Below, one piece after another: positions 32,632-38,638 of a stretch of DNA of 64,000 nt (the first letter of the stretch is position 1; each line of letters begins with the position of its first letter). The notes under the pieces are model-generated. The model worked only from the letters and a program-made list of their open reading frames with translations, did no database searches and was not told the DNA's origin. The stretch comes from Spirulina subsalsa PCC 9445 (GTDB taxonomy: Bacteria; Cyanobacteriota; Cyanobacteriia; Cyanobacteriales; Spirulinaceae), in assembly GCF_000314005.1 (NCBI RefSeq), contig NZ_JH980292.1, forward strand, positions 4,728,598 to 4,792,597. The letters are read 5' to 3'. Made by a program: the position numbers and the translations under genes.

Positions 32632-32931
32632 ATGTTAGAACAAGCTAGACACATCTATCAGAGAACCTCTCCCGCTAAAGCCATTGCTTTGGGGATTGGT
32701 GCGCTCGTCTTAGCCCCTACTGTCGCCTCATTACTAAAACCTGTGGCTAAGGCAACCATTAAAACGGGTTTGGTTTTATACGATAAAACGAAAGGAACTA
32801 TTGCCGAGGCCGGAGAAGTTTTGGGGGATATTGTGGCGGAAGCTAAGGCGGAAGTGGTGGCGGAACAAGCCCAAAAAGAATCCCAAAATGCTCAACTGAC
32901 AAGTCAAGCGAGTGGCGGTGAATTGTCTTAG
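32632..32931 (+). CDS. DUF5132-like small membrane protein 1
   Basis: The 99-residue protein has a short basic N-terminus and one or two membrane segments (AIALGIGALVLAPTVASLL). A LKPVAKATIKTGLVLYDKTK segment, shared with its neighbour at 33026-33274, is followed by a charged helical end (VLGDIVAEAKAEVVAEQAQK). DUF5132-like proteins accompany HMA2-type metal ATPases in cyanobacteria. PacL proteins of mycobacteria are small one-helix partners of metal ATPases, and a similar scaffold role is an inference. A terminator hairpin follows at 32971. Confidence 0.7.
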   Translation: MLEQARHIYQRTSPAKAIALGIGALVLAPTVASLLKPVAKATIKTGLVLYDKTKGTIAEAGEVLGDIVAEAKAEVVAEQAQKESQNAQLTSQASGGELS

Positions 32932-32970
32932 TTCTTGATTGTTTTTTACCAGTTTTCCAATCAATTTTAG

Positions 32971-33013
32971 AGGAGTAGAATGTGCCAACACACTTTCGTT
33001 CTACTCCTTTTTT
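32971..33013 (+). terminator. Rho-independent terminator
   Basis: A ten-pair stem, AGGAGTAGAA (32971-32980) with TTCTACTCCT (32999-33008), is followed by five T. It ends transcription of the DUF5132-like gene at 32632 and stands tail to tail with the minus-strand gene at 33026. Confidence 0.85.
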
Positions 33014-33025
33014 GTGTTGGTTGGC

Positions 33026-33274
33026 CTAGGATGCGCTACGGGACGCATTTCCTGCCGATTTAGGGGCTTGGGACTCCTGATAGAGAGATAAGCCACTTTT
33101 GATAATTCCTTTCAATACGGGTTTACCGAGTTTGACGGCGGCTGGTAAAACAATTGTTCCGGCGACGAGCGCTCCTAAGCCGAGTAGGGCGGTGGGGCTG
33201 CCTGTCTGACGATCTTCGATCATTTCCCTTAAATGGAAGGTTAAAACAGATTTATCCCAGTGAATCAATGACAT
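33026..33274 (-). CDS. DUF5132-like small membrane protein 2
   Basis: The 82-residue frame starts MSLIHWDKSVLTFHLREMIE. A likely internal start gives MIEDRQTGSPTALLGLGALV. The membrane segment GLGALVAGTIVLPAAVKLG is followed by KPVLKGIIKSGLSLYQESQ, clearly related to LKPVAKATIKTGLVLYDK in the protein encoded at 32632. It is on the strand of the metal ATPase and 113 bases downstream of it in the direction away from its start. It may be part of the same transcript. Confidence 0.7.
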   Translation of the reverse strand: MSLIHWDKSVLTFHLREMIEDRQTGSPTALLGLGALVAGTIVLPAAVKLGKPVLKGIIKSGLSLYQESQAPKSAGNASRSAS

Positions 33275-33387
33275 GGTTAAGCGCGAGTATAGAATGGGTA
33301 AAGAGTAATTTAAAGCTTGGGGAGAGTTCCCCTTTGCTCCATATTATTGCATAAGTTTCTCAACAATTAACCGAGATCAGGAAAGAT

Positions 33388-35586
33388 TTACAGGACTATA
33401 TTGGTTTCGATGTGATGCTGGACGAGGGGGCGTAAACTGTTCAATCCGGCGGCGATCGCGGTTCCATTGTGGATAATCGTTGCCCAGAGGGGATTGAGTC
33501 CCACCGTTGCCGCCAAACCTAAGCCCAAGAGATTGGGCGCTACAACTAAAAAGGTATTCTGTTCAATCAAAGCGCGAGTTTCTTGGGCAATGGCGATCGC
33601 CTCCAAAACACTCCCGAGATCATTATTCATCAACACCACATCCGCCGTTTCCCGCGCCACATCTGACCCATCCTCAAAAGAAATCGACACATCCGCATAG
33701 GCCAAAGCCACCGAATCATTCAACCCATCCCCCACAAAAGCCACCGTCCGCCCGCCCCGGTGCAAATCCCGCACAATCTTCGCCTTGTCCTCCGGAAACG
33801 CCTCCCCATGCACCTGAGAGGGCGGAATATTCAACACCTGAGCCACCTCCCGCGCCCGTTGTTGCTTATCCCCCGTCAAGAGATGAATCCTCATCCCATA
33901 GTCCTCCTGCAACTTCTGAATCACCCGCGCACTCTCCGGCCGGAGGGGATCCGTGAACTGCATCACCCCCTCCAACCTGCCATCACAGGCCAGATAAATC
34001 AACGAGAACCACTCCGAAAGACCGCCCAGGGGAAAAACATCCTTTTGGGCCTCTCCCCAGTCCAAGCCCTGTAAATCCCCCAGCACCACACCCTGTTCTT
34101 GTAAAAACTTCTCACTCCCCACCAACACCCACACCCCATCAACCACCGCATCCATGCCTAACCCCAGTTCATAATGCCAGTGATCCCGAGGTAACAGATC
34201 AACCCCCTGCCCTTGGGCATACTCTACAACCGCCTCAGCGATGGGATGGGTAATTCTCTGTTCCGCCGAAGCCGCCAACTGAGCCAAACGCTCAAAGGAA
34301 AAACGGTCAGTCAGTCGCCCCAACCCTACCACCTTAACCTGACCTTGGGTGAGGGTTCCGGTTTTATCAAAAACCACCGTATCCACTTCCGCTAATAACT
34401 CCAACGTCCGCCCACTACGGACTAAAATCCCGTGACGGGTAGTATGACTTAAGGCCCCTAAAAAGGCCGTCGGCATCGATACCCGAATCCCCGTCACAAA
34501 ATCCAACGTTAGAATCGAAGCCGCCCGCGCTGCGTCTTGGGTCGTCAGCCACACCAACCCCGCTAAGGTCAGAGAGGGCAGAATCAACCGATCCGCCACC
34601 TTAGCCGCATAGTTCGCCATACGGGTATCATGGACGGGGGCTTTTTGTAATAACTCAATACTGGCGGCCGCCCGGGTTTTTTCTCCCACCCGCTCACAAG
34701 TTAGGCGAATTTGACCAGACCGGACTAGGGTAGAAGCATAAACTAAGGTACCAGGCACCGCCACAATGGGCATAGATTCCCCGGTGAGTTGTTGCTGGTC
34801 AATGGTCGCTTCTCCTTTGATGACAACCCCATCCACGGGAATCCGTTCTCCGGGATAAACCACCACCGTTTCCCCCACCTGCACCGCATTACTGGGGATT
34901 TGGGTAATTTGTGCGTCTCGTTCCACCCAAGCAAAACGCCCAATGGTATCTAACAAGTCGGCTGTTTCCTTTTCTGTCGAACGGGCGGTTTTTTCTCGGA
35001 TCAAGTCCCCCAGTTCATGGAGGGTAATCACGAGGGAGGGGGTGATTAATTTGCCTTGAAAACTGCTTAAAATCAGGGCGAGGAAGTCCAGACCGTCAAT
35101 ATTTAGTTTTCGGTCTACCCATAAGCTCTTAAAGGCTCGTTGGGAAACGGGAAAGGCGGCGGCAACGAGGGCGGCACGGGCGAAGAAGCGTAGGGGTAAG
35201 CTTGCCCATCGGTAACTGGCAAAGGCTAAGAGGGTGGCTGTGGTGGGTAGGGCGAGACTAGACCATTGTTCTAGACCCTCGAAGCGGGGGGGATTAAGTT
35301 TGGGGGGGGATGGGAGGAGGGGGAACGCCTCAAGGACGGGTTGCAAGACTTGCCAAAATCGCCGACAAACTTCTGTCGGGTCTGAGGTGGAGTGATAAAT
35401 CACCACGGAGGCGGCGGAGGGGTTAATTCGGCAGTTTTCCACCCAAGATTGTAGGCGTAACTTGGCCTGTAAGGACTCGGTGAGGGGCTTATTTTTTTGG
35501 ACTTGCGGCACTCGTAAGCGTACCCGACCGGGGACGGTGTGAATGAGGGTGGGGGCGGTTAGGTCAGGGGAGGAGGGGGAGGACAT
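33388..35586 (-). CDS. Heavy-metal-type P-type ATPase lacking the CPC motif
   Basis: The 732-residue membrane pump has an N-terminal HMA-like domain (LIHTVPGRVRLRVP, about residues 14-27) without the CxxC metal site. TGES (268-271) is the actuator motif. The phosphorylated Asp is D407 in VFDKTGTLTQG, and GDGLNDSVALA closes the P domain. In the ion-binding helix the usual CPC/SPC is replaced by SMPTAFLG (MPT at 371-373), so transport cannot use the standard Cys pair. The same arrangement is seen in ATPases that travel with HMA2 proteins, whose metals are poorly known. The HMA2 gene lies upstream. Confidence 0.88.
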   Translation of the reverse strand: MSSPSSPDLTAPTLIHTVPGRVRLRVPQVQKNKPLTESLQAKLRLQSWVENCRINPSAASVVIYHSTSDPTEVCRRFWQVLQPVLEAFPLLPSPPKLNPPRFEGLEQWSSLALPTTATLLAFASYRWASLPLRFFARAALVAAAFPVSQRAFKSLWVDRKLNIDGLDFLALILSSFQGKLITPSLVITLHELGDLIREKTARSTEKETADLLDTIGRFAWVERDAQITQIPSNAVQVGETVVVYPGERIPVDGVVIKGEATIDQQQLTGESMPIVAVPGTLVYASTLVRSGQIRLTCERVGEKTRAAASIELLQKAPVHDTRMANYAAKVADRLILPSLTLAGLVWLTTQDAARAASILTLDFVTGIRVSMPTAFLGALSHTTRHGILVRSGRTLELLAEVDTVVFDKTGTLTQGQVKVVGLGRLTDRFSFERLAQLAASAEQRITHPIAEAVVEYAQGQGVDLLPRDHWHYELGLGMDAVVDGVWVLVGSEKFLQEQGVVLGDLQGLDWGEAQKDVFPLGGLSEWFSLIYLACDGRLEGVMQFTDPLRPESARVIQKLQEDYGMRIHLLTGDKQQRAREVAQVLNIPPSQVHGEAFPEDKAKIVRDLHRGGRTVAFVGDGLNDSVALAYADVSISFEDGSDVARETADVVLMNNDLGSVLEAIAIAQETRALIEQNTFLVVAPNLLGLGLAATVGLNPLWATIIHNGTAIAAGLNSLRPLVQHHIETNIVL

Positions 35587-35689
35587 GAGGGGGGGAGGGG
35601 GAGCAGGGGAGTGGGGAGTGGGGGGTAGGGAGTGGGGGGTAGGGAGAGGGGGAATTAAGACTTATTCCCTATTCCCTGTTCCCTATTCC

Positions 35690-36223
35690 CTAGTTAGATT
35701 CGGAATCTTGACTAGCGGTTTCTAGAATATTCATTAAACGCAGACCTAGTTCTAATTCGCTCAAATTACCCGTGTGGTAATGAATGACGATGGAGGAGGC
35801 TGCACGGTTGACGCGCACATGGATCACTTGCTCCTCGGCGTTGAGGAGTCGTTCTAAGCGTTTGGCAAAGGCGGAATTACTACTCAGTTCGGGGATGCGT
35901 AGGCGAATGCGGCCGGGGACGGAATGAATAATCGTAAATCGATCATCGCCAAAGCTGGGGGGAGTTGGAGTGGGGGCGGGTTGAGGAGGGGTGGGGGTGG
36001 CGGCGGAGGGTTTTTTCAGTTCTCGGAATACCTGTCGAGAAATACTTGCAACAGCTAGGTTCACGAGGAGGGCATTGGCTCCCCGCAGTTGAAAACGACT
36101 GGTAACAAATAATCCTAAGATGACGGGTAGAATCATCTCGACTTCTCCGTGTTCTTGGAGAAACTCAGAGATTTGCTGGGAGTTGGGGGAGGTTTGTTCT
36201 AAGGTGGCAATGGTTTGTTCCAT
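35690..36223 (-). CDS. HMA2-domain protein, partner of the P-type ATPase
   Basis: The 177-residue protein has a hydrophobic stretch (EMILPVILGLFVTSRFQL), a helical part (ANALLVNLAVASISRQVFREL) and a Pro-rich linker. A C-terminal HMA-like domain (FTIIHSVPGRIRLRIPELSS, about residues 97-160) closely matches the N-terminus of the ATPase. The Cys pair of ordinary HMA domains is absent. It lies 103 bases upstream of the ATPase on the same strand, separated by GGGGAGT repeats. A role as carrier or regulator of the pump is inferred. Confidence 0.78.
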   Translation of the reverse strand: MEQTIATLEQTSPNSQQISEFLQEHGEVEMILPVILGLFVTSRFQLRGANALLVNLAVASISRQVFRELKKPSAATPTPPQPAPTPTPPSFGDDRFTIIHSVPGRIRLRIPELSSNSAFAKRLERLLNAEEQVIHVRVNRAASSIVIHYHTGNLSELELGLRLMNILETASQDSESN

Positions 36224-36613: not shown

Positions 36614-36649
36614 GTGATAGCCTACGTTGGCGCAGCCTGCGCGAAGCGC

Positions 36650-37075
36650 ATAGATTTAAGAGTCAAGAACTTAGTCAAGAATCATTGTCTAGCTAAATCA
36701 ATCAATGATGCGGCGTGGTATCAGTTTCGAGAATGGATAGAGTATTTTGGGGCTAAATTTGGTAAGATAACGATTGCTGTCGCACCGAACTATACAAGCC
36801 AAAACTGTTCAAATTGTGGTGAAACTGTTAAAAAATCTCTATCGACTAGAACCCATCAGTGTAAATGTGGGTGTGTTTTAGATAGGGATGAAAACGCCGC
36901 TATCAACATTCTTAAGAAGGGGTTGAGTACCGTAGGGCATACGGGAACTTTTGGGATAGACCCAATAAACGCTTGGGGAGAGAATACCTCTACTTTTTCA
37001 GAAGTGATTTTGTCTAAGCAAGTAATCTCAATGAACCAAGAATCCCCGTCTATGCAAGAGCGGGGAGTGTCAATG
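36650..37075 (+). pseudogene. TnpB C-terminal fragment G (zinc finger and last RuvC block)
   Basis: The frame from about 36650 encodes the C-terminal third of TnpB. It has AAWYQFREWIEYFGAKFGKI, the zinc finger CSNCG...CKCG (Cys at YTSQNCSNCG and HQCKCGCVLD) and the catalytic LDRDENAAINIL. The RuvC-I and RuvC-II blocks are missing. The start at 36614 is only repeat DNA, so this is a 5'-truncated relic. The open frame runs on to 37165 through the IS right end and into the tail of the opposite lipoprotein gene. Confidence 0.85.
37020..37073 (+). ncRNA. Intact-looking tnpB right end / omega-RNA 3' end
   Basis: The terminal hairpin CCCCG (37044-37048) with CGGGG (37061-37065) is followed by AGTGTCAA, ending at 37073. 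In active elements the bases after this point act as the guide; here they begin TGGGCAAGCAAAAAGC. Since tnpB is truncated, the RNA could only work with a TnpB encoded elsewhere. The layout matches the ends in remnants A and F. Confidence 0.5.
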
Positions 37076-37139
37076 GGCAAGCAAAAAGCCTTGGAAACTC
37101 ATGTTTTCAAGGCTTTAAGGGGGATTGCTGCGAGGAGGG

Positions 37140-37895
37140 TTAGGAGCCTAATTCTAAAGTTTTAATACTTTGTTCAAATTCGGGTAATAAGCGGTTAAAT
37201 TCTTCGGAAGTGGCGGCGTAGGTGACGATCCAAATTTGCTCGCCTTCTTGAATCATGTAGAAAAGCTGTTTAATTTTGGCGCTGTCGGTGTCAATTTCTC
37301 CCACGAGTCGGCCGGCTTTTTTTCCATTTTGAAGATCGACCATTTGGGGTTCTTCTAGGGTGTAGAGGGCGGCTAATTGTTCTTTGGCGGCTTCCATGTA
37401 GGTTTCGATGCCAATTTCTGAGGGGATGTTTTCGGTGGCGATATTTACATTGGTTAGAAAGCCCGAGGTGGCGGCACTTTGGGGGTCAAAGGCGAGGAAG
37501 GCGATCGCATCGGGATTTTCCTTAATCCCGGCCAATCGGTCGGCATAAGCGGGATTAATGGCGGTTAATTGGGCTTCGAGTCGGTTTAAATCGGTTTTAG
37601 GATTGCCCCCTTGATACCGTGCGGGGAGTTGGAGGGCTAAACCATTGCCTTGTATGGTTTGCCACCCATTTTGAGTTCCTTCCTCCTCGGTGGGGGTGCT
37701 GTCTGCTGCGGTGGTGTCAGGATTGGTCAGTGTGGCACCTGTGTTAGGGGATTCCACCTCTGAAGGGGTTGCACCATTTTGGACGGTTTCCCCCGGAGAG
37801 GTAGCGTCGCTGGTGTCTGGTGTATTGCCACTACAAGCGACTAAGCTGGCTAACACGAAGGTACTCAAGAGCGATCGCTTAACAAATTGAAGCAT
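37140..37895 (-). CDS. Lipoprotein with PsbP/Mog1-like C-terminal domain
   Basis: The 251-residue protein has a signal peptide ending in LASLVACSG (lipobox Cys about 21). A Ser/Thr/Pro linker to about residue 75 is followed by a globular domain: GWQTIQGNGLALQLPARYQG, ETYMEAAKEQLAALY, KAGRLVGEIDTDSAKIKQLF and WIVTYAATSEEFNRLLPEFE. The last part matches the fold of PsbP-like/DUF1795 proteins. It should be lipid-anchored outside the cytoplasm. Its last codons overlap the read-through frame of the tnpB fragment. Exact function is unknown. Confidence 0.75.
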   Translation of the reverse strand: MLQFVKRSLLSTFVLASLVACSGNTPDTSDATSPGETVQNGATPSEVESPNTGATLTNPDTTAADSTPTEEEGTQNGWQTIQGNGLALQLPARYQGGNPKTDLNRLEAQLTAINPAYADRLAGIKENPDAIAFLAFDPQSAATSGFLTNVNIATENIPSEIGIETYMEAAKEQLAALYTLEEPQMVDLQNGKKAGRLVGEIDTDSAKIKQLFYMIQEGEQIWIVTYAATSEEFNRLLPEFEQSIKTLELGS

Positions 37896-38071: not shown

Positions 38072-38638
38072 ATGACAGCAGAGACAATCAATAATAACGA
38101 TTTGATATTACGCAAGGACATTTTAGGCTCCCGTCGGTTTAGTAATTACTTTTGGGCTGTGATTTCCGCTATTGGTGGCATTGGCTTCTTACTGGCGGGA
38201 CTGTCGAGTTACTTCCACGTCAATCTTTTAGTGGTCAGTGATACCAGTGGATTGATTTTCTTTCCCCAAGGCGTAGCCCTTTTGTTTTATGGTTTGGCCG
38301 GAACTTCCGTCACCTTGTATCTTCTGACGGTGATCCTGTTAGATGTGGGCGGCGGTTACAATGAGTTCAACAAAAAAACCGGACAGGTTAAAATTTTTCG
38401 CTGGGGGTTTCCGGGCAAAAACCGTCGCATTGAACTGGTGTATACACTGGAAGATGTCCAAGCGGTGCGGGCGGAGATTCGGGACGGACTGAACCCGAAA
38501 CGGGCGTTGTACTTACGAGTGAAAAAACAACGGGATCTCCCCCTAACACGGGTTGGAGAACCTATGTCCTTGTCTGACTTAGAAAATCAGGGTGCTGAGT
38601 TAGCACGTTTTTTACAAGTTCCTCTCGAAGGACTTTAG
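38072..38638 (+). CDS. ycf4: Photosystem I assembly protein Ycf4
   Basis: The 188-residue thylakoid protein has two membrane helices (FWAVISAIGGIGFLLAGLSS and FFPQGVALLFYGLAGTSVTL). A cytoplasmic-side domain follows, with GGGYNEFNKKTGQVKIFRWG and RIELVYTLEDVQAVRAEI. These are the hallmarks of Ycf4, which helps assemble photosystem I. Length and sequence are normal. It is followed 13 bases later by a cyclophilin gene. Confidence 0.95.
   Translation: MTAETINNNDLILRKDILGSRRFSNYFWAVISAIGGIGFLLAGLSSYFHVNLLVVSDTSGLIFFPQGVALLFYGLAGTSVTLYLLTVILLDVGGGYNEFNKKTGQVKIFRWGFPGKNRRIELVYTLEDVQAVRAEIRDGLNPKRALYLRVKKQRDLPLTRVGEPMSLSDLENQGAELARFLQVPLEGL

Follow-up and report, generated by a model that had tools for sequence, protein, structure and literature searches.

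A candidate scaffolded Fe(II) pump module of the FezAB/PacL-Ctp kind in Spirulina subsalsa PCC 9445

A four-gene island of the cyanobacterium Spirulina subsalsa PCC 9445, located in a 64,000-nucleotide stretch of contig NZ_JH980292.1 (positions 4,728,598 to 4,792,597; hereafter the window), encodes a P1B-type ATPase, a separate protein of the HMA_2 family and two small proteins, namely a DUF5132 protein and a protein termed here D2. The ATPase carries neither the cysteines of the cysteine-proline-cysteine (CPC) motif nor a proline in its fourth transmembrane helix (TM4), which raises the question of what ion it moves and what the small proteins do beside it. The answer favoured here, with a probability of roughly 0.6, is that the island represents a scaffolded Fe(II) pump of the P1B-6 type, a cyanobacterial variant of the kind exemplified by FezAB of Clostridioides difficile and by PacL-Ctp of mycobacteria. 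All four open reading frames (ORFs) listed in a first-pass annotation of the window were found at the same coordinates, and the island is more than a chance assembly, in that similar ones recur across many cyanobacterial families.

Ion site of the pump and its relatives

The pump has the complete makeup of a P1B ATPase, with intact DKTGT, HP and GDGLND motifs, and the solved folds nearest to it are P1B structures (Z 34.7 to 7qbz). In all 51 cyanobacterial homologues whose motif could be read, as well as in FezB-type and CPC pumps, the residue before the CPC position lies at a constant 45 residues from DKTGT, so that the CPC corresponds to F363-V364-T365 of the window pump. The same register was obtained from an independent alignment with the separate CPC pumps encoded in the same genome, and the predicted model displays a break of TM4 at residues 361-363, which is the place of the ion site in P-type pumps. 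The CPC in TM4, which marks membership of P1B-1 and P1B-2, is missing from all 51 homologues, and D-[FL]-x-[TS] stands at its place in every one of them, divergent lineages included; residue 362, which is mostly Ala in CPC pumps, is Asp in the window pump. The first-pass annotation had correctly seen that the CPC is absent, but had placed M371-P372-T373 at its position, which was a misalignment: by the constant spacing, this tripeptide falls on the TPT downstream of the CPC, 8 residues off, and it is thereby ruled out as the ion motif. Its further proposal of a substrate other than a typical thiol-bound metal, although argued from that wrong motif, agrees with the membrane helices, which are free of Cys (cysteines occur only at positions 52, 74, 297 and 534). 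The kinship with FezB, the conserved Asp and His-Asn residues and the link to iron had escaped the first-pass annotation.

Relatives outside the cyanobacteria were collected by scanning genome contigs for D-[FY]-x-C-[GA] at the matching spacing from DKTGT, and the matches listed, a broad P1B-6 family, include pumps from Firmicutes, Proteobacteria, Desulfobacterota, Actinobacteria, Spirochaetes and methanogens. Also among those listed is a pump of C. difficile that bears an N-terminal HMA_2 domain (4.2e-7) and adjoins a DUF6110 protein; from the organism, the gene pair and the families, we take this locus to be fezAB. FezB has been described as a putative transporter of ferrous iron in ferrosomes (PMC11334425). 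The window pump and 35 FezB-type pumps (36 in total) all have Asp362, His706 and Asn707, and R21 and R23 are conserved to at least 90% across them. The FezB-type TM4 pattern, D-[FY]-S-C, of which the window pump keeps the Asp and has Thr for the Cys, was taken from these same pumps after a scan whose own pattern already contained D-[FY]-x-C.

A phylogenetic tree unites 28 cyanobacterial pumps in one clade (support of 99 in the Shimodaira-Hasegawa-like approximate likelihood ratio test), which is joined by a Deinococcus pump (100) and next by the FezB-type core (98), while CtpC-type pumps with CPC group with the CPC pumps. Among the nearest plasmid-borne matches outside the cyanobacteria are this Deinococcus pump and two pumps of actinobacteria whose partners are DUF1490 (PacL) proteins. 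On plasmids of Arcobacter and Priestia, pumps whose TM4 reads D-Y-S-C or D-F-I-C are encoded alongside small HMA_2 proteins, and the Arcobacter plasmid also harbors a gene annotated as DUF2202.

The DUF5132 protein, D2 and the HMA_2 domains

The DUF5132 protein comprises a transmembrane helix, a K-P-V-A-K-x-x-I-K segment and a helix rich in Glu and Ala (E/A-rich) that contains D66-I-V-A-E-A-K, and a model built on the FezA-like alignment predicts one long helix over residues 14-94. A single transmembrane helix, an E/A-rich cytoplasmic helix and a neighbouring P-type ATPase make up the layout of PacL, which is thus present here; the C-terminal metal-binding motif of PacL is not found in the DUF5132 protein, which has no Cys and a single His at position 7. 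Single-sequence Pfam searches with 26 DUF5132 proteins returned no match to DUF1490 (PF07371) or DUF6110, and profiles were therefore needed. From the surroundings of FezB-type pumps, 62 FezA-like proteins were gathered, representatives of which match DUF6110, and DUF5132 matched the FezA/DUF6110 profile at 94.8% (score 42.6; 74 columns covering helix and tail), as against 0.6-0.7% for reversed controls and at most 1.4% for 15 decoy families of small membrane proteins. FezA matched PacL at 67%, and DUF5132 matched DUF1490/PacL weakly, at 14%, each of these comparisons having only two sequences on the PacL side. Asp66 and Ala71 are invariant among the window protein and 27 FezA-like proteins. 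DUF6110 itself (PF19605) was matched in none of 292 genomes of the phylum, and the control genomes gave no match either. FezA/DUF6110 has been termed PacL-like by the authors who studied PacL, a protein that clusters via GxxG in its helix and binds the N-terminal domains of its pump via E/A repeats (PMC13043812).

The N-terminus of the pump and the separate HMA_2 protein both match PF19991 and both bear H-x-VPGR-x-RLR (H-T-V-P-G-R-V-R-L-R in the pump), and neither contains a Cys pair, in agreement with what had been read before. Equally confirmed was the K-P-V-x-K-x-x-IK-x-G-L-x-LY segment common to DUF5132 and D2, each of which has one hydrophobic helix. The suggestion that both small proteins are PacL-like partners holds for DUF5132, through its kinship with FezA and its helical layout, but not for D2, which is a separate, subclade-specific family sharing the helix segment only. 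D2 begins with a head of the form M-S-L-I-H-W-D-K-S-V-L-T-F-H-L-x-E-M-I-E-D, followed by its hydrophobic helix; M1, H5, V10, H14 and E17 are invariant in 13 homologues, and the family occurs at 15 loci, all within the subclade of the window pump. To judge from the sequence of this head, MSLIHWDKSVLTFHLKEMIED, the invariant His5, His14 and Glu17 might bind metal.

Across the 292 genomes, the pump is present in 39, DUF5132 in 45 and HMA_2 in 47, and DUF5132 accompanies the pump in 38 of the 39 genomes that have it, versus 7 of the 253 that do not. Whether the small proteins lie mostly away from such pumps, which would have spoken against a partnership, was also checked and proved not to be the case: of the 58 DUF5132 matches, 34 are found no more than 8 kb from this type of pump, 5 stand beside a P2-type pump and 19 are elsewhere or at contig ends. 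DUF5132 genes with no pump nearby are seen at loci L096, L097, L098 and L091, and some of them may have other partners. Loci L085, L087, L092, L095, L089 and L093 encode P2-type ATPases of about 1000 amino acids (aa) with a PEGL-type TM4 and an N-terminal HMA_2 domain, followed by a metK-like gene; a DUF5132 gene precedes the ATPase in L085, L087, L092 and L095. DUF5132 and HMA_2 therefore accompany a second class of pump.

Iron context and competing explanations

The subclade of the window pump is characterized by D-F-V-T in TM4 and HNG in the sixth transmembrane helix (TM6), and in most of its loci with enough sequence the pump lies near feoA/feoB; Pfam confirmed FeoA, FeoB, DUF2202 and ferritin, the last of which is present at some of these loci. 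FeoB occurs in 22 of the 23 genomes with a D-F-V-T/HNG pump and in 85 of the 269 others, and 13 FeoB copies lie within 8 kb of such a pump, compared with 0.11 expected, in 6 of 10 families. At locus L069, a single strand carries feoA, feoB, ferritin, DUF2202, HMA_2, the pump and D2 one after another.

Transport by P1B pumps is directed out of the cytoplasm. The window pump would most likely carry Fe(II), through an ion site formed by Asp362 and Thr365 of TM4 and His706-Asn707 of TM6 rather than by thiols. Anchored in the membrane by its one helix, the DUF5132 protein, by analogy with PacL, whose layout it shares, may hold the pump via the Cys-less HMA_2 domains with its E/A-rich cytoplasmic helix and cluster pumps in the membrane, and the separate HMA_2 protein could serve as a second docking or regulatory domain. 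Given the outward direction of P1B transport, the iron would end up either outside the cell or, in the manner of FezAB, in a ferrosome-like membrane store.

Several points weigh against this scheme. No FeoB, ferritin or Fur box adjoins the window's own copy (a simple consensus scan revealed no convincing Fur box at the island), and the FeoB of this genome is located about 1.7 Mb away; since the linkage to FeoB is seen in relatives and not here, the assignment of iron comes from those relatives. A related subclade with TM6 N-N-G is not linked to feoB, and 6 of its 7 genomes checked have no FeoB. DUF5132 is not nearby in 19 of 53 pump loci, the counts of linkage and co-occurrence ignore shared ancestry, and the split from the CPC pumps received a support of only 87 in a quick tree whose root was imposed by a CPC outgroup. 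Moreover, Thr stands where FezB has Cys in TM4, and the substrate may therefore have shifted. The NNG subclade (loci L034, L037-L044, L046 and L082; TM4 D-F-A-T or D-L-C-T) has its pumps near genes that read as a peptide deformylase and an HtrA-like protease, and near two-domain HMA_2 proteins.

With the FezA/FezB ferrosome module of C. difficile, the island shares an HMA_2 N-terminus with GRxR, the Asp before the CPC position, the TM6 His-Asn, an adjacent small one-helix protein with a D-x-x-A-E-A-K helix, and the iron context. It differs in the TM4 Thr, in having DUF5132 instead of DUF6110, in the additional HMA_2 protein and D2, in a small-protein gene that is convergent rather than co-directional, and in that an iron organelle is here a hypothetical destination. 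The PacL-CtpC/CtpG/CtpV effluxosome of mycobacteria (DUF1490) likewise combines a single helix and an E/A-rich helix beside a P1B ATPase with TM6 HN, and a DUF1490-partnered Rhodococcus pump has GRxR in its N-terminus, but DUF1490-partnered pumps keep the CPC. Canonical P1B-1 and P1B-2 pumps (CopA, ZntA) are alike in overall fold and in the DKTGT, HP and GDGxND motifs, while the window pump is devoid of their CPC, TM4 proline and CxxC metal-binding domain. Because DUF6110, DUF1490 and the TM4 Cys were looked for and not found, the module is best filed as one that works like FezAB/PacL-Ctp, and not within the ferrosome or PacL families.

An effluxosome in the plasma membrane, which would export excess Fe(II) or another divalent metal on a DUF5132 scaffold with no organelle involved, overlaps with the favoured reading and stands at somewhat under even odds. 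PacL/Ctp platforms of M. tuberculosis operate in this way, DUF5132 resembles PacL as well as FezA, and feoAB beside an exporter fits protection from overload; however, the nearest pumps are of the FezB type while the CtpC-type ones fall among the CPC pumps, and DUF5132 has no counterpart of the C-terminal metal-binding His cluster of PacL1. That the substrate is Mn(II), Zn(II), Co(II) or some other ion, with the feoAB linkage of its relatives reflecting shared regulation only, appears rather unlikely: the change from Cys to Thr in TM4 could alter selectivity, and accessories that also stand beside P2-type pumps are not iron-specific, but the strong linkage and co-occurrence with feoB, together with the genes for ferritin and DUF2202 that belong to the same gene runs, argue for iron. 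A canonical thiol-metal pump (Cu, Zn or Cd) with a decayed motif, to which the placement in ATPase-IB by generic family models would point, is highly improbable, as the TM4 motif is a fixed trait of all readable homologues, the catalytic motifs are intact and the genome has CPC pumps besides, so that decay of the CPC was already refuted.

If the scaffolded Fe(II) pump is the correct reading, oxygenic phototrophs, whose iron demand is very high, own a dedicated iron pump module that is undescribed in the literature searched. More tentatively, cyanobacteria may make ferrosome-like, membrane-bounded iron stores, which the Asp/Thr/His-Asn P1B-6 pump would load and DUF5132 would organise; the ferrosome, an organelle known mostly from anaerobes, would then also exist in oxygenic phototrophs in an oxygen-tolerant form, and a literature search for cyanobacterial ferrosomes returned nothing relevant. 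The analysis provides a testable function for DUF5132 and HMA_2, two Pfam families whose role in cyanobacteria was unknown, and suggests that DUF5132, FezA/DUF6110 and possibly PacL/DUF1490 constitute one group of P-ATPase scaffold proteins. A P1B clade with neither the CPC cysteines nor the TM4 proline also bears on how such pumps choose their metal.

Layout of the island

Table 1. Features of the island, in window coordinates
Feature	Positions	Strand	Basis
DUF5132 protein, 99 aa	32632-32931	+	ORF; PF17195 E 2.8e-18, 66.1 bits (curated cut-off 25)
Inverted repeat GGAGTAGAA...TTCTACTCC, then T-run	32972-33007		between convergent 3' ends; read from sequence
Small protein D2, 82 aa	33026-33274	-	ORF; DUF5132 E 0.014, 15.9 bits, below cut-off
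P1B-type ATPase, 732 aa, FezB/P1B-6-like	33388-35586	-	TIGR01525 (ATPase-IB_hvy) E 3.8e-145
Pump TM6 motif H706-N707	33466-33471	-	invariant in FezB-type comparison
Pump M371-P372-T373	34468-34476	-	aligns with TPT downstream of CPC
Pump TM4 site D362-F363-V364-T365	34492-34503	-	true CPC position; spacing, alignment, model
N-terminal HMA_2 domain of pump, about residues 13-87	35326-35550	-	PF19991 E 8e-6, below Pfam cut-off
Separate HMA_2 protein, 177 aa, Cys-free	35690-36223	-	PF19991 E 1.7e-11

The minus strand carries the genes for the HMA_2 protein, the pump and D2 in this order, 103 and 113 bases apart, and the DUF5132 gene converges on D2 from the plus strand at a distance of 94 bases. 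The two small-protein genes thus do not flank the pump, as had been described, but both lie beyond its 3' end. The inverted repeat between them, judged by its sequence, is likely a terminator; it was outside the reach of the terminator scan, its loop being too long, and the promoter and terminator scans of the island performed at about chance level. The gap between the pump and HMA_2 genes (35587-35689) consists of short near-repeats, among them TTCCCTATTCCCT. Beside the HMA_2 gene, a remnant of a TnpB-like protein (PF07282, 1.9e-21) occupies positions 36614-37165, and a gene for the photosystem I assembly protein Ycf4 follows at 38072-38638, the proximity of which to the island is probably coincidental.

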